Shown piece after piece: positions 2,566-63,704 of a stretch of DNA of 64,000 nucleotides (positions within the stretch are counted from its first letter, which is position 1; each line of letters starts with the position of its first letter). Location: NCBI RefSeq assembly GCF_020923495.1, contig NZ_CP064048.1, forward strand, positions 1,614,501 to 1,678,500. Reading direction: 5' to 3'. Source of the stretch: Brevibacillus sedimenti (GTDB lineage Bacteria > Bacillota > Bacilli > Brevibacillales > Brevibacillaceae). The notes beneath the pieces were generated by a model. It worked only from the letters and a program-made list of their open reading frames with translations. It was not told where the DNA came from and searched no databases. A program made the position numbers and the translations under genes.

Positions 2566-3968
2566 TCTGGGACAAACTGAACGAAGAATGCGGCGTCTTT
2601 GGCATCTACAACCACCGGGAAGCAGCCCCGCTGACCTATCTGGGGCTGCACGCCCTGCAGCACCGCGGCCAGGAGAGCGCGGGCATCTGCGCCTCCGACG
2701 GTGAAAAGTGGTACAAGCACCGCGGCATGGGGCTGGTCTCGGAGGCGTTTGGCAAGGGCGACCTGGAGAAGTTTCGCGGCCATATCGCCATCGGCCACAC
2801 GCGTTACACCACGGCCGGGGCGAGCAAGATCGAAAACGCGCAGCCGCTCTTTTTCCGCTACGCGCACGGCAGCATGGCCGTCGCCCACAACGGCAACCTG
2901 GTCAACGCCTCTGTGCTGCGAAAAGAGCTGGAGGCCAAGGGTTCCATTTTCCAGACGACGAGCGACACCGAAGTGATCGCCCACCTGATCGCCCGTTCGC
3001 AAAGCCGCGATCTGGCGGAAGCGGTCCGGGAAGCGCTGCAGCACATCAAGGGCGCATATGCGCTTTTGGTGATGAACGAGCGGCAGCTCATTATTGCGCT
3101 CGACCCGAACGGTCTGCGTCCGCTGTCGCTCGGCCGTCTGGGCGACGCCGTCTGCGTAGCCTCCGAGACGTGCGCCTTTGACATCATCGGCGCAGAGTAT
3201 TGGCGCGACGTCCGGCCGGGCGAGCTGATCATCATCGACGAGGACGGCATCCGCGAGACGACGTTTACGGACAAAACCGTCCGTTCCATCTGTACGTTTG
3301 AGTACATTTACTTCGCCCGTCCGGACAGCGACATCGACGGGATCAACGTGCACATGGCCCGCAAGCGGCTGGGCAAGCAGCTCGCGCTGGAGGCGCCGGT
3401 GGAGGCCGACGTGGTGACGGGCGTGCCCGATTCCAGCATCTCGGCGGCCATCGGCTTCGCGGAGGCGACCGGCATTCCTTACGAGATCGGGTTGATTAAA
3501 AACCGCTACGTGGGACGCACCTTTATCCAGCCGACGCAGGAACTGCGGGAACGGGCCGTACACCTGAAGCTGTCCGCCGTGCGCAAGGTGGTGGAAGGCA
3601 AGCGGGTGGTGATGATCGACGATTCGATCGTGCGCGGCACGACCAGCAGCCGCATTGTCCGCATGCTGCGCGAGGCGGGGGCGCGGGAAGTGCACGTGCG
3701 GGTAAGTTCGCCGCCGGTGAAAAATCCCTGCTTCTACGGCATCGACACATCCACCCGGGACGAACTGATCGCCGCCACCAAATCGGTCGAAGAGATTCGC
3801 CGCATCATCGGCGCGGACTCGCTGGCTTTTTTGTCGGTGGAGGGCATGATCGAAGCGATCGGCCGTACGGACGCGGCTCCCAACAACGGCCACTGCCTGG
3901 CCTGCTTCACCGGCCAGTATCCCACGGAGATTGAATTTGAGGCGGCACTGCCGGCAGACAAGTGTTAA
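2550..3968 (+). CDS. purF: Amidophosphoribosyltransferase (glutamine PRPP amidotransferase)
   Basis: PurF makes phosphoribosylamine from PRPP and glutamine, the first committed step of purine synthesis. The ATG at 2550 is preferred over a TTG 18 bases upstream because GGAAGG sits at 2534-2539. This start gives a 13-residue propeptide ending in LNEE before CGVFG, so Cys14 becomes the N-terminal nucleophile after self-cleavage, as in the B. subtilis enzyme. The PRPP loop [13 protein letters not shown] lies near residue 350. Cysteines in SICTFEY, KNPCFYG and GHCLACF fit the four ligands of the 4Fe-4S cluster of Bacillus-type PurF. The start overlaps the purL end by 16 bases. Confidence 0.97.
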
Positions 3969-3980
3969 GAGGGTGAAACC

Positions 3981-5021
3981 ATGAGCGAAGCATACAAGCA
4001 AGCAGGCGTCGACATCGAGGCGGGCAACGAAGCGGTAGAGCGGATGAAAAAGCATGTGAAGCGGACGTTCCGTCCCGAGGTGCTGACTGATTTGGGCGGA
4101 TTTGGCGCGTTGTTTCGCCTGGATGTGTCCCGGTACAAAAAACCGGTGCTCGTCTCGGGCACGGACGGCGTGGGCACCAAGCTGAAGCTCGCGTTTGCCA
4201 TGGACAAACACGACACAATCGGCATCGACGCCGTGGCGATGTGCGTCAACGACGTAGTCGTGCAGGGAGCGGAACCGCTCTTTTTCCTCGATTACCTGGC
4301 CTGCGACAAAGTGATTCCGGAAAAGATCGAGGCAATCGTCAAGGGCATCGCCGACGGCTGCACCCAGGCAGGCTGCTCGCTGATCGGCGGGGAGACGGCG
4401 GAAATGCCGGGCATGTACGCGGAAGGCGAGTACGACATCGCCGGGTTTACCGTCGGTGTCGCGGACGAAGATAAGCTGATCACCGGTGCTGATGTAAAGC
4501 CGGGTGACGTGCTGGTGGGGCTTGCCTCCAGCGGCGTGCACAGCAACGGCTTTTCCCTCGTGCGCAAAGTGCTGCTGGCGGATCGGGGAATGTCGCTACA
4601 CGACCATGTGGACGAGCTCGGCAAAACACTGGGGGAAGAGCTGCTGACGCCGACCCGGATTTACGTCAAGCCGATTCTTTCGCTGCTCCAGTCTTATGAG
4701 ATCAAGGCGATGGCCCACATCACCGGCGGCGGCTTCACGGAAAACATTCCGCGCGTCCTGCCCGAGGGAACGCAGGCGGTGATCGACGTCGGTTCCTGGC
4801 CGGTGCTGCCGATTTTCCGGCTGGTGCAGGAGGCGGGCAGCATCAACCCGGCCGACATGTACCGCACGTTCAACATGGGCATCGGGATGGTGCTGGTCGT
4901 CAAACAGGACGACGTCGTCAACGTGATCGGCACGCTGCAGCAAATGGGCGAACAGCCGTACCTGATCGGTCAAATTCGGGCGGGCGAGCGGCGCGTCGTC
5001 TACAACGGGGTGACGTGGTGA
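3981..5021 (+). CDS. purM: Phosphoribosylformylglycinamidine cyclo-ligase (AIR synthetase)
   Basis: PurM closes the imidazole ring of FGAM to give AIR, using ATP. The 346-residue length is normal. The glycine-rich segment [20 protein letters not shown] near residues 53-72 and [19 protein letters not shown] after it are hallmark ATP-site motifs of the AIRS family. The ATG at 3981 follows AGAGGGTG. It starts 12 bases after purF and overlaps purN by 7 bases, so it is part of the same operon. Confidence 0.97.
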
Positions 5022-9265: not shown

Positions 9266-10534
9266 ATGAACGTACTGGTAATCGGCGGCGGGGGCCGCGA
9301 ACACGCCATCGTCTGGAAGTTGGCGCAAAGTCCCAAGGTGAAAAAGATTTTCTGCGCGCCTGGCAACGGCGGTACGGCGCTGTTGGCGGAAAACGTGCCG
9401 ATTCCCGTTGACGATTTTGCCGCCCTGGCCCAGTTTGCCAAAGACGAGGGGGTTGACCTGACAGTGGTCGGTCCGGAAGACCCGCTGTTGGGCGGAATCG
9501 TCGACTTTTTCACGGAGCGCGGCCTGCCGATCTTCGGGCCGACTGCGCAGGCAGCGAAGATCGAAGGCAGCAAAAGTTTTGCCAAGCATCTGATGAAGCG
9601 CTATGGCATCCCGACGGCCCGGTACGAGTCGTTTCTCGACTACGAGTCGGCCCTGGCCTACGTGCGTGAACAGGGGGCGCCGATCGTGGTCAAAGCGGAC
9701 GGACTGGCAGCCGGCAAAGGGGTGGTCGTTGCGGAAACGCTGGAAGCAGCGGAAGCGGCGCTCTACCGGATTATGAAGGAAGGCGTGTTTGGCCAGGCGG
9801 GGGCGCGCGTCGTGATCGAGGAGTGCATGCGCGGCGAAGAGCTGTCCCTGCTGTCGTTTGTCGACGGGGAAACGGTCAAGCCGATGGTGACTTCCCAGGA
9901 CCACAAGCGCGTCTTTGACGGTGACCAGGGCCCCAACACCGGCGGCATGGGCACCTATGCGCCTGTGCCGCACATGTCGGCAGAGCTGGTGGAGCAGATC
10001 GTGGAGACGATCGTCAAACCGATGGCCCGCGGCATGGCACAGGACGGCATCCCGTTTAGGGGCGTGCTTTACACGGGCCTGATGATCACGGACGAGGGGC
10101 CGAAGGTCGTGGAGTTCAACGCCCGCTTCGGCGATCCGGAAACGCAGGTGATCCTGCCGCTTTTGGAGACCGATCTGGTAGACATCTGCACGGCTGCCAT
10201 CCAGGGGGAACTGGCATCGGTCGACGTAAAGTGGAAGCAGGAAAGTGCGGTATGCGTCGTCATGGCCGCTCCCGGGTATCCGGGTGAATACCCCAAGGGC
10301 GAGCTGATCAGCGGCTTGGAAAAGGCGGGCGAGTCCGTCACCGTGTTCCACGCCGGCACCAAACAGACGGAGCAGGGCATCGTCACCAGCGGCGGCCGTG
10401 TCCTCGGCGTGACCGGGACAGGACGAACGCTGGAAGATGCGCGTGCTCGGGCATACGCTGCCGTTGAGCAGATCAGCTTCGCGGGTGCGCATTACCGCCG
10501 GGACATCGCCGACAGGGCGCTGCGCAGACGCTAG
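9266..10534 (+). CDS. purD: Phosphoribosylamine-glycine ligase (GAR synthetase)
   Basis: PurD joins glycine to phosphoribosylamine using ATP, the second purine step. It begins with the phosphate-binding segment VLVIGGGGREHAI. The ATP-grasp core contains VVKADGLAAGKGVVVA and, later, GVLYTGLMITDEGPKVVEFNARFGDPETQ, which binds metal and nucleotide. The length of 422 residues is typical. ACAGGAGGGAG precedes the ATG. A terminator closes the unit just downstream. Confidence 0.97.
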   Translation: MNVLVIGGGGREHAIVWKLAQSPKVKKIFCAPGNGGTALLAENVPIPVDDFAALAQFAKDEGVDLTVVGPEDPLLGGIVDFFTERGLPIFGPTAQAAKIEGSKSFAKHLMKRYGIPTARYESFLDYESALAYVREQGAPIVVKADGLAAGKGVVVAETLEAAEAALYRIMKEGVFGQAGARVVIEECMRGEELSLLSFVDGETVKPMVTSQDHKRVFDGDQGPNTGGMGTYAPVPHMSAELVEQIVETIVKPMARGMAQDGIPFRGVLYTGLMITDEGPKVVEFNARFGDPETQVILPLLETDLVDICTAAIQGELASVDVKWKQESAVCVVMAAPGYPGEYPKGELISGLEKAGESVTVFHAGTKQTEQGIVTSGGRVLGVTGTGRTLEDARARAYAAVEQISFAGAHYRRDIADRALRRR

Positions 10535-10568: not shown

Positions 10569-10612
10569 GGGAGATCCGTCCGGTTATTGACGGTATCTCC
10601 CTTTCTTCTTGT
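10569..10612. terminator. Terminator after purD, also usable from the minus strand
   Basis: GGGAGAT (10569-10575) pairs with ATCTCCC (10595-10601), extended by CCGTC/GACGG. TTTCTTCTT follows on the plus strand and seven A precede it, giving a T run for minus-strand transcription. The stop codon of the small minus-strand gene lies inside the loop. Confidence 0.83.
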
Positions 10613-10721
10613 TCGCAGCGTACATAAAGTAGCCCATGACGGCGACACAGCCGATGATCAAGGCAAAGACAAACGCATTGTGGGAAAACCATTCGTACAG
10701 CGGAGGTCCGACAAGTGACAT
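10584..10721 (-). CDS. Small single-pass membrane protein, 45 residues
   Basis: An ATG preceded by TAGGAGGGA opens a 45-codon frame (MSLVGPPLYEWF..., ending GRYRQ). It has one strongly hydrophobic segment at about residues 17-35 and a basic tail NKKKGRYR, so the C-terminus should face the cytoplasm. It lies 12 bases behind the DUF2892 gene and so is probably co-transcribed with it. I do not recognise the family. The start site, length and context are good enough to call it a gene. Confidence 0.68.
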   Translation of the reverse strand: MSLVGPPLYEWFSHNAFVFALIIGCVAVMGYFMYAANKKKGRYRQ

Positions 10722-10733
10722 GGGCTGTCCCTC

Positions 10734-11180
10734 CTAGGAATAAGTTGGCTCGAGATGTTCGTCGCGGCTGTGGCGGTCGTCCGTTTTTTTGGCGCGCTCT
10801 TCGTTGCGGGAAGCTTCCTCGGCCTGGCGGTAGGAGACGTACTCCTTAACAGCCGCTTCGAGCTGTTTGTCTTCGGCCGACAGTTTGGTTTGCTCCTGCT
10901 TGGGAGCCGTGCCACTGCGCGGTTTCCCTGCCTGGTTCCTCATGTCCTTTGCTTTGCTGAGCATGTTTTGCATTCCGGCGCCGCAGCTGTTGACACCCAT
11001 CGCGTACAGCATCGGACAAAAGCGGGTGACGCCTTCTGCCACCTTCATGGCTGACAGCGCCATTAACAGCCAGGGAGTGCGGTACGGGCGGCGGCTCATC
11101 CTGCCGACGCCGTAGGCCAGCCCCAACAGGCCGACAGTGATGCGGATCAGAGCATCCACGGTTCCGACGTTTTTTTGCAT
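10734..11180 (-). CDS. DUF2892 (YgaP-type) membrane-domain protein with charged tail
   Basis: The 148-residue protein starts MQKNVGTVDALIRITVGLLG, the typical opening of DUF2892 proteins, which form two short membrane helices. It continues with VTRFCPMLYAMGVNSCG, where the two Cys match the usual C-P-xx-(x)-G-xxxC pattern of the family. Residues after about 85 are a soluble, highly charged tail rich in Lys, Glu and Arg, longer than in standalone DUF2892 proteins. The ATG at 11180 is chosen because AGGAGG precedes it; an upstream ATG in frame lacks a ribosome site. The function is unknown. Confidence 0.75.
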   Translation of the reverse strand: MQKNVGTVDALIRITVGLLGLAYGVGRMSRRPYRTPWLLMALSAMKVAEGVTRFCPMLYAMGVNSCGAGMQNMLSKAKDMRNQAGKPRSGTAPKQEQTKLSAEDKQLEAAVKEYVSYRQAEEASRNEERAKKTDDRHSRDEHLEPTYS

Positions 11181-17848: not shown

Positions 17849-18448
17849 ATGATGTACCAAAAAACCGTCATGTTGTCTGTGATAGCCGCTGCCAGTGTCG
17901 CTGCCGGCGGATACCTTTACGTAAATGCCAATCAACCTGCATCCGACCAGGCAACTCAATGGCAAGCAAACGTTCACGGGGCTGAACAAAAGGAGAAGGC
18001 GGGAACTGCGGTAGATGTAAGAGGAGATGTTAATGAGAGTTTTTCCAGTATCGAACAGTTGAAGGACAACTCTCAATTGATTGCAGAGGTTGAAATTGAA
18101 AAGGCGGACAGCTTCCAATACAAACACGTTGTGTTTACGTTGAGTGAAGCGAAACTGCTGCATGTCTATAAAGGAGAGGTCCAAAACGGAGAAACCGTCA
18201 AGATTCTCGAAACCGGCGGATATAAGGATGGAAAGGAATACACGTTTGAAGGGAACAAGGCATTTACGGAAAAGGAGACGGCGATTGTCTTTTTGGAAAA
18301 GTACGAAGGGCCGATTGCTGATGACGCTTATGTAATAGCGGGAGTGTATCAAGGGAAATTTGTAACAGACGGTCAGACAGTACAACCGCCCAATGGCGTA
18401 GAAAAGGGGCTGCAGGTAAAAACCATGGAAGAGTTGGGCTTGGAATAG
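17849..18448 (+). CDS. Secreted or membrane-anchored protein of unknown function
   Basis: The 199-residue protein starts MMYQKTVML and has one hydrophobic signal or anchor segment (SVIAAASVAAGGYLYV) at residues 8-23. A polar linker follows, then a mixed alpha/beta domain from about residue 65 (SSIEQLKDNSQLIAEVEIEK), with KLLHVYKGEVQNGETVKILETGG in the middle. No catalytic motif is evident. The ATG at 17849 is one of several starts; AAAGGG lies 9 bases upstream. GC content is lower than in the neighbours. It stands alone between the livF terminator and azlC. I do not recognise a named family. Confidence 0.65.
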   Translation: MMYQKTVMLSVIAAASVAAGGYLYVNANQPASDQATQWQANVHGAEQKEKAGTAVDVRGDVNESFSSIEQLKDNSQLIAEVEIEKADSFQYKHVVFTLSEAKLLHVYKGEVQNGETVKILETGGYKDGKEYTFEGNKAFTEKETAIVFLEKYEGPIADDAYVIAGVYQGKFVTDGQTVQPPNGVEKGLQVKTMEELGLE

Positions 18449-18562
18449 CATGGTATCAGGCGGCCAGCCAGGTGAATACTGGTTGGCCTTGTCGGTGGAG
18501 GAGATGGATGCGGGGCTGCGGCTGCTATACGGAGTGTAAAAGCCGTACATGCACTCCTGCAT

Positions 18563-18591
18563 TTGACAGAACTTACTGACAAGCGTAGAGT
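18563..18591 (+). promoter_or_regulatory. Likely SigA promoter of azlCD
   Basis: A perfect TTGACA (18563-18568) is followed after 17 bases by TAGAGT (18586-18591). Transcription would start near 18598, about 20 bases before the azlC GTG, just before the GGAGGGGG ribosome site. Confidence 0.6.
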
Positions 18592-18617
18592 ATAGCAGTG
18601 TATGGAGGGGGAAGCGA

Positions 18618-19301
18618 GTGAACTCTGCGCGCACGTTGTTTGTCACAGGCATGATTCAAATTATCCCGGTCGCCGCCGCAGGGATCGTGGACGGGCTTGT
18701 GTTTGGCATCCTCGCCCGGCAGGCAGGTCTCGGCATCGCGGAAGCCTTGCTGTTTTCACTCCTCGTCAACGCAGGGTCGTCGCAGTTTGCCGCCGTCGGC
18801 CTGATCTCGCAGGGGATTGTGGGCTGGCCCATTCTGGTCTCCGCGGCTTTGCTGAACGCCCGTCACCTGCTGTACGGCCTGTCGCTCGGGCCCCACTTTC
18901 GCGGGACGCCACCGTGGAAGCTGTCGTTGATGGCGGCTGGCCTGAACGACGAGACGTACGCCCTGACATCCACCTATCTGGCGTCCGGCCAAAAGCCCAG
19001 CCTCTCCTTTTTTGCCGGTGCGAGCGCGGTCGACTATCTGATCTGGAACGCCAGCACGCTGGCCGGCGCCTGGTTTGGCGCGGTGTTTACGGAAACGGAG
19101 GCGTACGGCCTGGACTTTGCGTTTGTGGCCACGTTCCTTGGCTTTCTCGCAATTAATCTGCTCTCCCCGTTTCATGTGAAGGTGGCGGCCGGCGCTGCGG
19201 CTGTCGCCTGCCTCGCGTACTGGGGAGGCGGCGGGACGGCGGCGGTGATTGCCGGAACGCTGACGGCAGTGGTGATGGGAGCGGTGATCCGTGAACGATA
19301 A
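18618..19301 (+). CDS. azlC: AzlC family branched-chain amino acid exporter, large subunit
   Basis: A 227-residue, highly hydrophobic protein of the AzlC (LIV-E) family, which exports branched-chain amino acids or their analogues together with AzlD. NAGSSQFAAVGL and LLNARHLLYGLSLGPHF are the family signatures. The GTG start has GGAGGGGG 7 bases upstream. The last 11 bases overlap azlD, as usual for this pair. Having an exporter next to the Liv importer suggests balancing of the intracellular pool; this is inferred from position only. Confidence 0.92.
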   Translation: MNSARTLFVTGMIQIIPVAAAGIVDGLVFGILARQAGLGIAEALLFSLLVNAGSSQFAAVGLISQGIVGWPILVSAALLNARHLLYGLSLGPHFRGTPPWKLSLMAAGLNDETYALTSTYLASGQKPSLSFFAGASAVDYLIWNASTLAGAWFGAVFTETEAYGLDFAFVATFLGFLAINLLSPFHVKVAAGAAAVACLAYWGGGGTAAVIAGTLTAVVMGAVIRER

Positions 19302-50159: not shown

Positions 50160-50322
50160 GTTGCGCGGGAACAGAGATCCGCTCCTGGTATTTTGTCAGC
50201 GACCGATGGGCATTTTGCACCTGGGCAGAAGTAGTTAATCGTAGGATAAAGGTGAAAACCATTATGTATATCATCGGGACCCTGTCGGTGTGCAACGCTT
50301 TGGAATCCAACAGTATTCACCC

Positions 50323-50355
50323 AAAAAAATAACACCCGTTAATTGGGTGCTTTTT
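50323..50355. terminator. Bidirectional terminator at the edge of the AT-rich islet
   Basis: CACCC (50333-50337) and GGGTG (50345-50349) form a short stem with AAAAAAAT on the left and CTTTTT on the right. It could end the bacteriocin-like transcript, whose stop is about 90 bases away on the minus strand. Confidence 0.65.
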
Positions 50356-50444
50356 AATCAAATCGAGCGACGGGTAAACAAATCATAAATCAAGGGCATG
50401 CATGGACCTTCTCGTTCATTTACAGATGAACCTATTATTTGATG

Positions 50445-51032
50445 CTAAAAACAGTTAGCAACTACATTCGTGAGATTAAAGAAATCTAATAATGCATCCT
50501 TCACAGATTTAGATAATCCTTCAGAAGCTTTGTCCAAAGCTTTTGAAATTGATTTCTTTCTGGAAAAACCATTGTACCGGAATTCATCATAATATTTTTT
50601 TATCGTCTTTACTGCTTTTGTAGTTCCCCCAAGAGCTTTGATAGCTGATTTAATTTTTGTTATTTTAGTGAATGAAAATGCATTGGTTACCAAAGCTATT
50701 CCCACTGCAGCAATACATCCTGCAACGCTTCTGGAAACTTTAAGATTTGGTTTTACCTCGCTAAAGTGTAAATTATCTTCACTGTCTACAGTAACGTATA
50801 GTCCGGTTGTTTCCTGGAACCATATCGCAGTTGCTTGAGGGCCTTGATCCAAAACACTTTGTGGAATATCTTCAATCGCTTGAAGAATAACAGTGGTTTG
50901 ATCAAAGACTTCATTATCAATTAACTGTTCTGCTGGCAGGTTTTCATTCTCATCCGCATTGGCAACGTTAGGAACTACAGTAACAAAGAGACAAAATGAC
51001 AAGAAACACAACAGAAACTTTTTAACCTGCAA
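50445..51032 (-). CDS. Secreted bacteriocin-like precursor (closticin 574-like)
   Basis: A 195-residue precursor. Residues 1-26 form a Sec signal with a likely cut after NVANA. Residues 27-95 are acidic (ENENLPAEQ, IEDIPQSVLDQG, VDSEDNLHF). Residues 96-195 are basic and partly hydrophobic, with a Gly/Ala-rich segment (VAGCIAAVGIALVTNAFSF), then KITKIKSAIKALGGTTKAVKTI, and an exact Asn-Cys-Phe end. Only Cys106 and Cys194 lie in this C-terminal domain and could form a disulfide. This layout, the GG-x-xKA helix and the NCF terminus recall closticin 574 from Clostridium, an 82-residue bacteriocin cut from a larger Sec-exported precursor. The similarity is from memory and was not searched. TTG start with GAAGG 5 bases ahead. 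GC content is far below the neighbours, suggesting transfer. Confidence 0.65.
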   Translation of the reverse strand: MQVKKFLLCFLSFCLFVTVVPNVANADENENLPAEQLIDNEVFDQTTVILQAIEDIPQSVLDQGPQATAIWFQETTGLYVTVDSEDNLHFSEVKPNLKVSRSVAGCIAAVGIALVTNAFSFTKITKIKSAIKALGGTTKAVKTIKKYYDEFRYNGFSRKKSISKALDKASEGLSKSVKDALLDFFNLTNVVANCF

Positions 51033-51116
51033 AAGCCTTCTCTCCCTTACTAAAAATTATTACTCTGCGTAACTTAAACATATCAATAAAAATAGAATTT
51101 TTTCAAGAGTTTTTCG

Positions 51117-51122
51117 TATAAT
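51117..51122 (+). promoter_or_regulatory. -10 element of the small membrane protein gene
   Basis: A perfect TATAAT lies 28 bases before the ATG at 51150; the -35 region is weak. The transcript leader would be very short, starting just before the ribosome site. Confidence 0.45.
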
Positions 51123-51149
51123 ATTATACAGAAAAGGAGGATATTTGTA

Positions 51150-51323
51150 ATGAAAGACAATTTATCCCTGGTAGGCGCCATATGCCTGTTAATCGTGACG
51201 ATCGTTAATTTTTCGACTGACAATCAACTGATTACAGGAACAGTCGGCGGAATTCTATTTCTGTTTGTGTTGATTCTTAACATAAAATCAAGGCTGGATA
51301 ATAAAAAAGCAAACAAAAAGTAA
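51150..51323 (+). CDS. Small two-helix membrane protein, candidate immunity protein
   Basis: A 57-residue protein with GAAAAGGAGG 7 bases before its ATG. It has two hydrophobic segments (LVGAICLLIVTIVNF at about 7-21 and TGTVGGILFLFVLILNI at about 29-45) and a basic tail KSRLDNKKANKK, so both ends should be cytoplasmic. It is divergent from the bacteriocin-like gene, 117 bases away, and shares its low GC. Small membrane proteins with two to four helices often give self-immunity to class II-type bacteriocins, but no specific family was recognised. The role is inferred from position. Confidence 0.65.
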   Translation: MKDNLSLVGAICLLIVTIVNFSTDNQLITGTVGGILFLFVLILNIKSRLDNKKANKK

Positions 51324-51421
51324 CGAGGAGCGTTTTCAATCCTGAGAAGCATCTCTGACAGACCGGCTGCTGTTGTGTTGATACAAGCGTTTGCCGTCAA
51401 GGCAGGAAGTCCTTGTTTGAA

Positions 51422-51480: not shown

Positions 51481-51837
51481 ATGGAAATGAACATCGTGTC
51501 CGTCACGGGAGAAAGCGTGCCGCCGAGCAAAGGTGGGTCGCCTGCCGATACATTTGAACGATCCATCGCGACCTGTGAGGTGAACGGACAGCAGAGAACG
51601 GTCACCGTCACCTACGTTCGCTACTTTGAAAAGGTGCTGGCCGAGCGGGGCATCTACGATCAGGATGCGGAGGGCATTCCGGTCAACCGGCTGGTGGCCG
51701 TGCTCTTCTTGGAAAAACACCCGGATGAGCGGGGAAACCGCCACTACATCAACGACACCGACAAGTTTCTGTCGCTGTTTGCCGGATTTTCGCTGGAAGA
51801 TTTCAAACGAAAACACGTTGGATTATCCCTTGCGTAA
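51481..51837 (+). CDS. Hypothetical protein, 118 residues
   Basis: A soluble protein with no signal or membrane segment. It begins MEMNIVSVTGESVPPSKGG, and has a strand-rich region with ATCEVNGQQRTVTVTYVRYFEKVLAERGI, then INDTDKFLSLFAGFSLEDFKRKHVG. GGAGGAGG precedes the ATG at 51481. The composition is that of the host backbone, not the AT-rich islet. I do not recognise the family. It is followed by the NatA-type gene, which has its own ribosome site 133 bases later. Confidence 0.6.
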   Translation: MEMNIVSVTGESVPPSKGGSPADTFERSIATCEVNGQQRTVTVTYVRYFEKVLAERGIYDQDAEGIPVNRLVAVLFLEKHPDERGNRHYINDTDKFLSLFAGFSLEDFKRKHVGLSLA

Positions 51838-57568: not shown

Positions 57569-58053
57569 CCTAATTTAAGGGGAGAGGGTGGGAAAGATTG
57601 TAGTGAATCTTAATCTTTCCGCCCTCGAATACTTCAATTTTGTGGATAAGCCTTTGCAGAACCTGCTTTAATACTTGTTCATCATCAATGTCAAGCTTAA
57701 TGAAGCGTTCAACTTCTTTCATAAAGGCTTGCAACTGTTCATTAAAGTCTTTTCTTGATTCTAAAGCGGATTTCAGTTCAGCCTTCTTGTTCGCTAGGGC
57801 TTGCTGTTGTTTGGAAATACGTTCATTTTGCTGTTTGAATTGTTCTGTAGTTATCGCCCCCTCAACATGAAGACCTAACAACTTGTCAAAGCGTTTGTCT
57901 AGTTCAACTAACTGTTTGTCAATCCGCTTCAGTTCTCTTCTGATAGAGGACTGTAAAATGTTAGCTTTTTCCTCAGCCAGTCCGTAAAAGCGTTCTATTC
58001 TTACACTGTCCTGTATTAACGCTCTGAGGTCATTTTTGACCGCTTGTAATAAG

Positions 58054-58061
58054 GCTTGTTC
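58054..58061. repeat. Target-site duplication, left copy (IS256-type)
   Basis: GCTTGTTC is repeated exactly at 59405-59412. Both copies are within the recombinase gene and their reading frame agrees across the insertion. Confidence 0.9.
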
Positions 58062-59404
58062 GGGTCTGTCAATGATTTTGTGTAAACTCCAATAGCCGTT
58101 AGGCTCAGCGGAGATATGGTTGAACTCGCTCCGGAAACTGAACGGACAGTTGTAACAGAATTTGGCCCCAGTTCTGAACTCTCCCCGTCCACTTTCGTAA
58201 CACATCCATGGTTGCCAGGTAGAGCATTTTGAGCAGGGCTTCGTCTGTAGGGAAAATGGCTTTTCCTTTGGTGACTTTTCTCAGTTGGCGATGGTAGCTC
58301 TCAATGACATTGGTTGTGTAGATCAGTTTGCGAATTTCGGGTGAGTACTTGAAGAAGGTGGAGATTTCCGCCCAGTTCGTACGCCAGGAACGGACAATAA
58401 GGGGGTACTTTTGTCCCCACGTCTGCTCGAATTGATTCAGTTCTTCCAAGGCGGCCTCTTCCGTGGCCGCTTTATAAATCGGCTGCAGGGCCGACGTGAT
58501 CTTCTTGATGTCTTTGTAGGAAACGTATTTGATCGAGTTGCGAATCTGGTGGATGATGCACTTCTGGATTTCCGTGATGGGATAGCAAGCGGAAATGGCC
58601 TCGGAGAAGCCGCGAAGATTGTCCACACAGGTAATGAGGATGTCTTGCACGCCCCGGTTTTTCAACTCGTTTACGACATGAAGCCAGAACTTTGCCGATT
58701 CATTTTCCCCGATCCAGATGCCAAGTACATCTTTGTGGCCTTCCAAGTCAATGCCAATGGCCATGTAGGCGGCTTTGTTGACGATGGCACCGTCTTGTTT
58801 CACCTTGAAGTGAATGGCATCCAGGAACACGACCGCATATACAGCCTGCAAAGGACGGTTTTGCCATTCTTTGATCAGCGGGACGATCTTGTTGGTCACG
58901 TTGGAGATGAGGGTAGGAGAAACCTCGATGCCGTAGAGCTGCTGCAGGTGATCCTGAATGTCGCGGGTAGAAACACCCTTGGCATACATGGCAATGATTT
59001 GGTCTTCGATACCCGTCACGTTCGTTTGGTTCTTTTTGACGATGGTCGGCTCAAACTCACCGGCCCGGTCACGCGGAACCTGAATGTCCACATCGCCGTA
59101 CTCGGAACGCACCTTTTTCTTGCTGTAGCCGTTCCGGCTGTTGGTGGTTTTCTTGTTTTTCGTGTCGTGCTTGGCGTAGCCAAGAGATGTCTCCAGTTCG
59201 GCTTCCAGCATCTCTTGAAGGGTGTCGGCAAACAACTCCTTCAGGGCCGATTGGACGTCTTCCACCGATTGCATGTTCTTTTCCTTGATCCACTGCTTGA
59301 GTTGCTCTTTGGTCATCAGGCTCATGGGCTCTCCCAACCTTTCTTAGAATTCATTGTACTCTATTTTGAAGGTTAGGAGTTTACACAAAATAGTTTATAG
59401 ACTC
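58062..59404 (-). mobile_element. IS256-family insertion sequence, 1343 bp
   Basis: The ends are imperfect inverted repeats of about 29 bp that share ATTTTGTGTAAACTCC (58075-58090 and the complement at 59376-59391). The outer ends begin GGGTCTGTC and GAGTCTATA. It carries a single transposase gene and is bracketed by 8-bp direct repeats. This matches the IS256 family (1.3 kb, 8-9 bp duplications). Confidence 0.93.
58105..59325 (-). CDS. IS256-family (mutator type) transposase
   Basis: A 406-residue DDE transposase, apparently intact. RDRAGEFEPTIVKKNQ and GIEDQIIAMYAKGVSTRDIQDHLQQLYGIEVSPTLISNVTNKI are typical of the mutator-type N-terminal half. The first catalytic Asp is in VYAVVFLDAIHFKV and the second in ILITCVDNLRGF. 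The Glu is near TTNVIESYHRQLRKVTK. The ATG at 59325 follows GGGAG; an upstream TTG in frame would add four residues. Confidence 0.95.
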   Translation of the reverse strand: MSLMTKEQLKQWIKEKNMQSVEDVQSALKELFADTLQEMLEAELETSLGYAKHDTKNKKTTNSRNGYSKKKVRSEYGDVDIQVPRDRAGEFEPTIVKKNQTNVTGIEDQIIAMYAKGVSTRDIQDHLQQLYGIEVSPTLISNVTNKIVPLIKEWQNRPLQAVYAVVFLDAIHFKVKQDGAIVNKAAYMAIGIDLEGHKDVLGIWIGENESAKFWLHVVNELKNRGVQDILITCVDNLRGFSEAISACYPITEIQKCIIHQIRNSIKYVSYKDIKKITSALQPIYKAATEEAALEELNQFEQTWGQKYPLIVRSWRTNWAEISTFFKYSPEIRKLIYTTNVIESYHRQLRKVTKGKAIFPTDEALLKMLYLATMDVLRKWTGRVQNWGQILLQLSVQFPERVQPYLR

Positions 59405-59412
59405 GCTTGTTC
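59405..59412. repeat. Target-site duplication, right copy (IS256-type)
   Basis: Exact second copy of GCTTGTTC. Confidence 0.9.
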
Positions 59413-60456
59413 TTCGATGATATGGGAGGAACAATATAAGGAAGTGTATTTTACATAGCCCCCGCACACATATGCCCCATTACGTCTATCAGGTTTGAAG
59501 TGCATACCGCTTTTACAGTCAGCACACTTAGCAATATGAGCAAACAGGCTTTCTTTCCCGTTACTTTTACGCTCGCCTTTCTTTTTCATTAGTTCCTGAA
59601 CGGCTTGAAAGTCATCCTCTGTAATAATGGCAGGGTGGGCATTTTCAATGACAATCTGTTTGTCAGGCTCAACTTTACGTCTAATCTTGTAAAGTTCAGA
59701 TTCAGCTAGAATACCTGTAGTTTCTTCTCGATGGAAGACAAGTTTACCGGTATATACAGGATTAGACAAGATGCCCTTAATAGTATTTTGATGCCATTTT
59801 GTTCCCGCATTAGCCGCCCCGGAAACTGTTCTAGGAGTGGGAACACCTTTCCTCATCAGGTAGTTGCTGATTTTAAACATACCCCAACCTTCATGTAGGT
59901 AGAGTCTGAATATCTCCTTTACTATTGGAGCGGTGGTTTCATCGACTTCTAGCCGTTTGGTAACAGGATTAACAGTGTAACCGTACGGGGGTAATGATAC
60001 TATACGTTTACCTTGTCTAGCACTGGACTGTAAGCCTAGTTTAATCCGTTCAGACAGTTTAGAGTTTTCTTCTTCGGCTAGGATTGCCTTCAAATTAAAC
60101 ATCAGTCTACTTTTGCTTGTTTCAGTGTCGTAGTTATCTTCGGGCAATATCAAACGGATGGAAGTGCTCTCCAATTGATAGGCTATTTCCATACCTTTTC
60201 GAGTGTCTCGCGCTAGACGTGAAACGGATTTAGCAATAACAACGTCAAATTTTTTCTTCTTCGCGTCATCCAATAAGCGTAAAATCTCATTACGATTTTT
60301 CAAACCTGAACCGCTTATTCCATTATCAATGTACTGACCAACAACCGTAAAACCGTTTTCCCTAGCTATGCTTTCTGCAAGGGCAATTTGATTTTGCAGA
60401 CTGTTCTGCTGTTCCTCCCTCCGTGTACTGACACGTGCATAGATAGCACACCTCAT

Positions 60457-61716: not shown

Positions 61717-62484
61717 TTAGGTGGTAGAGGGGGAGCCGTAGGCTCCAGTCCTCATCTTCTCACGAAGTCGGTAACTATTCCCCCTAATATTGACGATGTG
61801 GGAATGGTGTAAGAGCCGATCCAGGATAGCCGTAGCAAGTATCGGATCGCCCATCAGTTCCCCCCATTCACCGAAACTCTTGTTGCTGGTCAACAGAATA
61901 CTCCCTCTCTCGTATCTTGCACTTACTACCTGGAAAAAGAGGTTAGCTGCCAAACTGTCAAACGGTAAGTAACCAATTTCGTCAATAATCAGGAGCTTTG
62001 GTCGAATATAGATGCGTAGGCGTTTATCCAGCCTGTTTTCCGTGTAAGCTTTTCGCAGATCTTCGATGAGTTGCGAGAGACTGACAAAGTAAACGGATAT
62101 CCCTTGCGAGATGGCTTCTACAGCCAACGCCACCGCCAGATGACTTTTTCCTACTCCGGGAGGCCCTAAGAACAAGACATTCTCGTGTCGGGTTACAAAA
62201 GTCATCGTGGCCAGCTCTCGAATCAACCGTTCGTCAATGCTGGGTTGGAAAGCAAAATCGAACTCCTCCAGCGTTTTTCGGTAAGGCAAGTGTGCGAGTT
62301 TGGTGCGTACCTCCATATTCCGTTTTTGACGTTCCGCTATCTCTGCATCTAGAAGCATGTTGAGAAAGGACAGATAGGTGGGCTGTCCATGACTTGCCGC
62401 TTCCAAATGGGCATCCAAGAGTAGAGCCGCTTGCTGAAGCCCAAGTTCCTCAAGACGTAGCCGTGCCTGTTCCAGTTCAATCAT
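61717..62484 (-). CDS. istB: IS21 helper ATPase IstB
   Basis: A 255-residue AAA+ (DnaC-like) ATPase that aids target capture. Walker A is FLGPPGVGKSHLAVAL, Walker B is LLIIDEIGYLPF, and LLTSNKSFGEWGE is the sensor region. The start overlaps the istA stop by 4 bases, typical of IS21. Confidence 0.95.
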   Translation of the reverse strand: MIELEQARLRLEELGLQQAALLLDAHLEAASHGQPTYLSFLNMLLDAEIAERQKRNMEVRTKLAHLPYRKTLEEFDFAFQPSIDERLIRELATMTFVTRHENVLFLGPPGVGKSHLAVALAVEAISQGISVYFVSLSQLIEDLRKAYTENRLDKRLRIYIRPKLLIIDEIGYLPFDSLAANLFFQVVSARYERGSILLTSNKSFGEWGELMGDPILATAILDRLLHHSHIVNIRGNSYRLREKMRTGAYGSPSTT

Positions 62485-63704
62485 GCTCCCACCCCCGTCA
62501 GCTGCTCATAGACATCCAGCGAACGCACTTCCACTTGCTGCGATGAAATCTGTCGGGCTTGCGGACGTGGATAGGCATATCCTTGAGCAGTCGTAAGACC
62601 TGCATACTGGTTTTCACAAAAAACAGTTGCACGGGATCGATAGACCTTTTGGTGTCGAGCAATACATGTGCCGTCGGCCCAGATTTCCACCCACCCATTC
62701 ACTTCTCGCACGGTACCCTCACGTCCACTGTACCTCCATGGAACCCCATATCGTACACCATCGTAGCTAACAAATCCGTCTCGGCTGACCTGTCTCGGTT
62801 CATGCAAGTATTTTTCCCATCGTTCAGCTGAAGGGATAGGCGACAGATTTTCCTCACGGAGTCGGTCGATGGGACGTTCGCCGGTTGTTCCATGAATACG
62901 GCGGTTAATCCGCTCGCACCAGTGTAGGGCTTGTTGATTGAGATCCTGTAAATCAACGAAGCGTTTGCCAGGAAGAAAGTTGTTTTTTACGTATTGAACG
63001 CCTCGTTCCACTTTTCCCTTTGTTTCGGGGCGTCGAACTTTGCATACTTTTGGAACAAGCCCAATCGCTGCAGCAAAGTCGGCAAAAAGCGGATGCCAGC
63101 GAGGTTTTCGATCATCTCCCATGCCCAGTACGACGGTTTTCATCTGGTCGGTCAGCATTACCTTTGGGATGCCCCCAAAATATTCAAAAGCATGAATCAA
63201 GCAACGAAGAAAGCTGTGAATGTCACAACGCTTAGTGAACTCTATATAGGTGGAACGAGAGTACCCCAATACCATGACAAATACCGGCACTTTTCGGACT
63301 GTACCGTCCAAATCTACGTAATCACACAGTCCCCAGTCGACCTGTGCATATTCACCAGGTTTCGTCTCGTAACGAAGAACAGCGGGAACTTGTTTGGGAG
63401 GACGGAAGTCCTTCACATAGTCTTTCAAGATGGTACGTCCCCCGGTATACCCCTTTTCTCGTAGAAGATCGAATAAAACCTCGCAGTTATAGATACCTTC
63501 TTGAAGACGTTCCTGCAGGAACGGTTTATACGGATCAAGCTTGGAACCACGAGATTTACGGGTTCCCTTTTCGGGGGAGAATTCACCCCGGAGATATCGG
63601 CGAACTGTATTTCGAGAATGCCCCGTTAGACGGGCAATTTCACGAATACTCTTGCCTTCTGCCCTCATGGTATGTAACGATATCACTATCCCACTCCTTA
63701 GCAT
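62481..63704 (-). CDS. istA: IS21 transposase IstA
   Basis: A 407-residue DDE transposase. The N-terminal HTH is SIREIARLTGHSRNTVRRYLRGE. The catalytic residues are Asp in EYAQVDWGLCDYV, Asp in MLTDQMKTVVLG and Glu in ETKGKVERGVQYVKNNF. The C-terminal part is a small beta-rich domain (GVRYGVPWRYSGREGTVREV). Confidence 0.94.
   Translation of the reverse strand: MLRSGIVISLHTMRAEGKSIREIARLTGHSRNTVRRYLRGEFSPEKGTRKSRGSKLDPYKPFLQERLQEGIYNCEVLFDLLREKGYTGGRTILKDYVKDFRPPKQVPAVLRYETKPGEYAQVDWGLCDYVDLDGTVRKVPVFVMVLGYSRSTYIEFTKRCDIHSFLRCLIHAFEYFGGIPKVMLTDQMKTVVLGMGDDRKPRWHPLFADFAAAIGLVPKVCKVRRPETKGKVERGVQYVKNNFLPGKRFVDLQDLNQQALHWCERINRRIHGTTGERPIDRLREENLSPIPSAERWEKYLHEPRQVSRDGFVSYDGVRYGVPWRYSGREGTVREVNGWVEIWADGTCIARHQKVYRSRATVFCENQYAGLTTAQGYAYPRPQARQISSQQVEVRSLDVYEQLTGVGA

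Follow-up and report, generated by a model that had tools for sequence, protein, structure and literature searches.

A putative closticin 574-related bacteriocin precursor and its candidate membrane immunity protein in an AT-rich islet of Brevibacillus sedimenti

Within a 64,000-nucleotide stretch of Brevibacillus sedimenti DNA (contig NZ_CP064048.1, referred to here as the window) lies a recently acquired AT-rich islet of two divergent genes, the products of which are most likely a secreted toxin against related bacteria and a membrane protein that shields the producer from it. The explanation that best accounts for the islet as a whole, and in which we have considerable confidence, is that it is a transferred two-gene cassette encoding a Sec-secreted, processed bacteriocin and its membrane immunity protein. 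An earlier note, made from the letters of the window alone, had suggested a transferred pair of this kind resembling closticin 574, and the comparisons described below bear this out in most respects and revise it in some.

Alignment of the window with the sister species G022 (L112) by blastn defines the islet. Homology at 91–95% identity ends at position 50174 and restarts at 51365, placing the islet, to which no strand is assigned, at about 50175–51364; it is thus real, but wider than the interval 50320–51330 first proposed. The GC content of that interval is 35.0% as against 57.1% for the whole window, consistent with the earlier remark that it falls far below the flanks, and the precursor and small membrane genes are at 35.7% and 35.6% respectively; the lowest-GC kilobase of the window is 50301–51300. 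G022 is the closest relative as judged by flanking genes (GatB is 99% identical and the gene after the islet 94%), and there the space separating gatB from the following gene is taken up by an ECF sigma gene, encoding a protein of about 600 amino acids with sigma-70 regions 2 and 4. A similar ECF sigma-type ORF occupies this site in G024. The roughly 1.2-kb islet thus replaced a resident gene, and the genome from which the window comes encodes only distant ECF paralogues of the G022 protein. A genome search of 25 other species of the genus finds the precursor in none. The absence from these species, the different gene at the sister site and the plasmid-borne relatives described below all support the islet being the product of transfer, as had been supposed. 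We find neither mobility genes within the islet nor direct repeats or a target duplication at its ends; no plasmid matches it at the nucleotide level as donor DNA would, and Rfam has no match in it. The sigma gene itself (minus strand, 739–2589 in L112 of G022, presented in gene direction, and 700–2649 in L113) encodes a long C-terminal part in addition to regions 2 and 4, and is conserved in other species of the genus between gatB and a 118-aa gene, although it is missing from the window genome.

The position of the islet next to gatB is as originally described, but its right neighbour is the conserved 118-aa gene (51481–51837, outside the islet) and not the NatAB-type exporter genes, which sit beyond it. 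Both continue at the conserved site in the sister species, which lacks the islet, and are therefore ancestral rather than parts of it, and for the same reason we do not count the NatAB-type genes as a circular-bacteriocin transporter belonging to the islet. A circular bacteriocin of the circularin or AS-48 type is rejected, as the islet has two genes only and includes no SpoIIM/DUF95 protein or ABC transporter. A class II bacteriocin with a double-glycine leader is rejected as well, as there is a Sec signal and a long pro-part instead and no exporter in the islet.

The putative bacteriocin precursor of 195 amino acids is encoded on the minus strand at 50445–51032, an assignment supported by the ORF, an alignment of 28 members and a match to PHROG_25631 (E 3e-57). 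Its TTG start aligns with the ATG of a 57%-identical relative in Bacillus sp. CH30_1T (L023) and lies 9 nt from an upstream ribosome site, AAGGGAG (51042–51048, minus), while 94 nt past the stop there is a terminator-like hairpin with a T-run (50331–50351, minus). Residues 1–26 (50955–51032, minus) form a Sec signal peptide, recognised by eye from a KK pair, a hydrophobic core and A-N-A before D27; here and elsewhere signal peptides and transmembrane (TM) segments were judged by composition and inspection, and cleavage would be expected at VANA/DE. An acidic propeptide of about residues 27–98 (50739–50954, minus; net charge about −12) follows in the alignment, and we infer its junction with a basic C-terminal domain, the putative mature part, of about residues 99–195 (50448–50738, minus; net charge about +11), which is delineated by alignments, profile matches and AlphaFold2. 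Cysteines occur at positions 9 and 14 in the signal, 106 (50715–50717, minus) and 194 (50451–50453, minus), so that the C-terminal domain has exactly two, and the protein ends in VVANCF. The order of signal, acidic and basic parts, the cysteine pair and the NCF end are as read in the earlier note, and nearly all family members have the same three parts. Pro57, Cys106, Lys126, Gly135, Gly136 and Cys194 are invariant in the 28 aligned precursors.

AlphaFold2, working from only two sequences, models the C-terminal domain as five helices (residues 104–115, 121–133, 137–152, 158–169 and 175–192), with fair confidence between residues 120 and 185 and poor confidence at both cysteines. As the model has little to say about the cysteines, it is their invariance that points to a disulfide, and Cys106 and Cys194 would then probably join the two ends of the domain. 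A structure search with this weak two-sequence model finds no PDB or viral fold match, and a sequence search of the PDB with a profile finds nothing.

The relation to closticin 574 emerges from the C-terminal domain. A profile of 22 such domains (A2), none of them from a closticin-type member, matches a closticin-574-like protein of 304 amino acids in genome G338 (L038) at E 5.4e-9. Closticin 574 itself was represented by its published 34-residue fragment (PMC7690686) together with the data on the closticin-574-like bacteriocin CLB; the G338 domain is 56% identical to the fragment over the shared part, and PMC10888436 gives a CLB primer that encodes PDWSKIAA, the mature start of the G338 protein. 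Comparison by hhalign of A2 with the G338 gene and the closticin 574 fragment gives a probability of 96.5% and E 8e-10 over 45 columns. Adding bridge proteins brings this to 98.2% and E 4e-14 over the whole domain, the window type having 16 extra columns, although direct similarity to closticin is limited to about the first 45 residues of the C-terminal domain. The bridge-type proteins of G080, G286 and G368 have a domain of 82–85 residues behind a window-like acidic pro-part, and the window query and the closticin-like query each retrieve, independently of one another, those of G080, G286 and G315. Sequence comparison thus supports homology of the window domain with closticin 574-type bacteriocins.

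Like closticin 574 from Clostridium tyrobutyricum and CLB from Bacillus altitudinis, the window protein is a Sec-type precursor whose C-terminal domain has a Cys near its start, a K-x-x-K-x-K motif, a Gly-Gly pair and a Cys near its end. There are also clear differences. The window precursor has 195 amino acids and closticin 574 has 309; the domain, with its extra basic stretch, is about 96 residues long as against 82, or about 14 longer; and the window type, unlike closticin 574 and CLB, is accompanied by a small two-TM partner gene of its own. Its propeptide has no relation to the closticin-like one, which resembles actinobacterial DNRLRE-type proteins: searches with a CLB-type pro-part find actinobacterial plasmid proteins only, and the pro-part of the window protein can be aligned with no family but its own. 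We conclude that the toxin domain is common and the propeptides differ, and that the route of processing may differ accordingly. The likeness to closticin 574 first noticed therefore holds for the C-terminal domain but not for the propeptide or for a mature length of about 82 residues. In the G338 protein, residues 77–234 are a propeptide common to actinobacterial plasmid proteins annotated with DNRLRE, DUF4258 and TNT, as though different C-terminal toxins shared this one pre-toxin domain. The G338 gene has a divergent neighbour with a ribosome site, encoding a membrane protein of 115 amino acids, a candidate partner which the closticin literature searched does not link to closticin.

On the basis of this anatomy and of the closticin 574 precedent, we propose that the precursor would be exported by the Sec pathway and cut by signal peptidase after Ala26, and that an extracellular or wall-located protease would then remove the acidic propeptide, which may keep the basic domain inactive or soluble until that point. 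The released domain of about 96 residues, with five amphipathic helices and its ends probably joined by the Cys106–Cys194 disulfide, would act on the membrane of related Gram-positive bacteria, and the divergent 57-aa two-helix membrane protein would protect the producer. The removal of the propeptide deserves particular consideration, as the whole secreted protein (residues 27–195) might instead be active uncut, in the manner of a class III bacteriocin, with the acidic part serving in targeting or stabilisation. The acidic part does have a conserved motif of its own in the alignment (invariant Pro57, I-E-x-(I/L/M)-P and W/Y71), no protease gene is present in the islet, and geobacillin 26-type proteins, which are Sec-secreted, about 240 amino acids long and of narrow spectrum against relatives, act as long secreted proteins (PMC13176240). 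We nevertheless consider an uncut protein unlikely: the closticin 574 pre-protein of 309 amino acids gives an 82-aa peptide that is a short C-terminal part of it (PMC10888436), the bridge proteins combine a short closticin-like domain with the acidic pro-part, suggesting that the pro-part is removable, and a subtilase gene is found directly beside the precursor in L012 and in its vicinity in L024. With no protease in the islet and these subtilases at other loci, maturation of the processed bacteriocin that we favour is most likely the work of a protease of the cell wall or of the host. In plasmid p5 of P. megaterium (L024, 1776–2654), genes for an S8 peptidase and for a 'SAR2788 family putative toxin' come just upstream of the closticin-related precursor and form with it a cluster of secreted toxins. 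Against the proposed killing, the CLB mature part made cell-free was inactive on two indicator strains, for which its authors suggest insensitive indicators or a protein that is non-functional or different (PMC10888436); a missing disulfide is another possibility.

Several other assignments were rejected. The window family is like geobacillin 26 and alicyclobacillin 24 in being Sec-secreted and plasmid-borne (theirs in Alicyclobacillus), but is unrelated to them in sequence, with E 21 by BLASTP and a probability of 0.05% by hhalign against alicyclobacillin 24, and the NCBIfam model NF035925 finds alicyclobacillin 24 and not the window precursor. The Alicyclobacillus plasmid pDSM3922.1 carries, along with alicyclobacillin 24, a gene annotated as the Cas9 inhibitor AcrIIA9 (L127, region 18203–18919; L126, 31448–31954). 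Three relatives match the BLB8/JUQZ-1 family (NF053514) weakly, at E 0.01 or weaker, and in the one detailed (L027) the match covers residues 1–51 only, scores 13 of 40 bits and amounts to signal-peptide similarity. DUF4179 (E 0.03) is far under the cut-off and a chance helix match, and the PADLOC matches to LeoBC and GajB are weak and partial. PHROG_25631 is the only model that recognises the precursor, over its full length, but it is a mere sequence cluster of unknown function; Pfam and NCBIfam have no model for the family. Notwithstanding the PHROG match, an origin in a phage or prophage is rejected, as neither phage records nor IMG/VR contigs contain relatives.

Precursor homologues are patchy in Bacilli and are often found on plasmids; they are not conserved core proteins. 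A precursor search gives a match at E <= 0.01 in 21 of 400 Bacilli genomes, and a plasmid search gives 53 records from Bacillus, Staphylococcus, Priestia, Macrococcus/Macrococcoides, Paenibacillus and Stenotrophomonas, the plasmid-borne relatives including those on B. subtilis pBS32 and in B. pumilus, Staphylococcus and Macrococcus. In the pBS32 record the homologue is at 9865–10488 and its 57-aa neighbour at 10572–10745. Among the matches listed, every annotated relative is called a hypothetical protein. The smallest arrangement is that of the 2.26-kb S. agnetis plasmid p908_2260 (L034, NZ_CP051853.1), which holds only a rep-like ORF of 292 amino acids, the precursor and the small gene. One gene is annotated in this record and the rep-like ORF is not; parts of the plasmid recur in larger plasmids at 99.6% over 1.1 kb (L033) and 98.7% over 2.1 kb (L037). 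In a Stenotrophomonas rhizophila plasmid record (L036, CP031730.1), an unannotated precursor of Gram-positive type is present at 3860–4552 with the small membrane gene upstream, possibly through contamination of a Gram-negative assembly.

The many plasmid-borne relatives, down to one of 2.26 kb, and the lack of mobility genes of its own in the islet would also be in keeping with a plasmid-style module for addiction or competitor exclusion, directed at plasmid-free siblings, of which the chromosomal copy was left behind by a lost plasmid. We think this quite improbable, since the homologues are chromosomal in many genomes as well, and a secreted toxin with its immunity protein is a bacteriocin whatever benefit it brings, which makes such a module a variation on the bacteriocin cassette rather than an alternative to it.

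The candidate immunity gene encodes a two-helix membrane protein of 57 amino acids on the plus strand at 51150–51323, an assignment based on the ORF and on homologous small genes beside other precursors. As described in the earlier note, it is preceded by a ribosome site, AGGAGG, and is divergent from the precursor with 117 nt between their starts; the ribosome site lies at 51135–51140 (plus) with a 9-nt spacer. The model of the small protein is a helical hairpin (residues 2–23 and 26–56, pLDDT 81). The pair recurs well beyond the window, with a small two-TM gene adjoining the precursor at 27 of 29 homologous loci. At 22 of the 29 it is a divergent ORF of 48–85 codons that has a ribosome site and encodes two TM segments and a basic tail, where dinucleotide shuffles lead us to expect 0.017 divergent two-TM ORFs with a ribosome site, and the precursor homologues of 28 loci share invariant residues, so that chance is not a sufficient explanation. 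It lies upstream on the same strand in three further loci (L003, L006 and L036) and downstream of the precursor in two (L015 and L028); the remaining two loci have no matching small gene. Profiles built by leaving out each member and its near relatives recover the small gene at its own locus in 13 of 15 cases, that of the window at E 1.3e-7. In relatives, dN between small genes is 0.07–0.41 and dS runs from 1.6 to saturation (for example 0.07 against 2.3), and this low dN relative to dS argues for purifying selection at the protein level. Over 20 pairs, the distances among toxins are correlated with those among small proteins (Mantel r 0.52, p 0.0001), and more weakly so without near duplicates (r 0.22, p 0.045). 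Small membrane gene and precursor gene are thus linked across relatives, as is expected of a bacteriocin and its immunity protein.

No family model calls the precursor a bacteriocin, and one might envisage a secreted signal or surface protein that kills nothing, with the small membrane protein as its receptor, regulator or chaperone. That seems to us very unlikely given a basic, helical C-terminal domain homologous to closticin-type toxins, and given the spread on plasmids with a small membrane partner in varied orientations, which is usual for toxin and immunity pairs. The small-gene profile also matches genes away from precursors, the best of them in G370 (L121), where it is chromosomal beside prfB (named by eye) with no precursor within 10.5 kb. 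Such an orphan would fit immunity without production, but could have another function; the weaker matches may be unrelated two-helix proteins.

These results assign closticin 574, so far an isolated and odd class II bacteriocin, to a larger family, that of Sec-exported precursors accompanied by a conserved membrane partner; its members on Bacillus, Priestia, Macrococcus and Staphylococcus plasmids were so far annotated only as hypothetical proteins. The analysis names a candidate immunity gene and a minimal natural plasmid with just the pair. As the same unnamed pair occurs, plasmid-borne or chromosomal, in many relatives from Bacillus and Staphylococcus, an overlooked family is now testable, and B. 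subtilis NCIB 3610 with pBS32 opens killing, processing, the disulfide and immunity to direct test. A broader proposal, which we rate only somewhat better than even, is that of an unnamed two-gene bacteriocin family that is widespread in Bacilli and is disseminated on plasmids, pBS32 among them. Its closticin-related helical domain would be tied together at the two ends by the invariant disulfide, a non-enzymatic counterpart to the head-to-tail circular bacteriocins, and would have been exchanged as a toxin domain between unrelated propeptides, with the two-TM immunity gene travelling along.

Two other features of the window, identified by eye from translations, lie on the minus strand. At 57570–60456 a large serine recombinase is apparently split (59395–60456 and 57570–58205) by an IS256-type transposase ORF (58105–59337), with a 23S rRNA methyltransferase-like gene adjoining, and this region is the remains of an integrated element. 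An IstA/IstB-like pair at 61717–63704 belongs to an IS21-type element.
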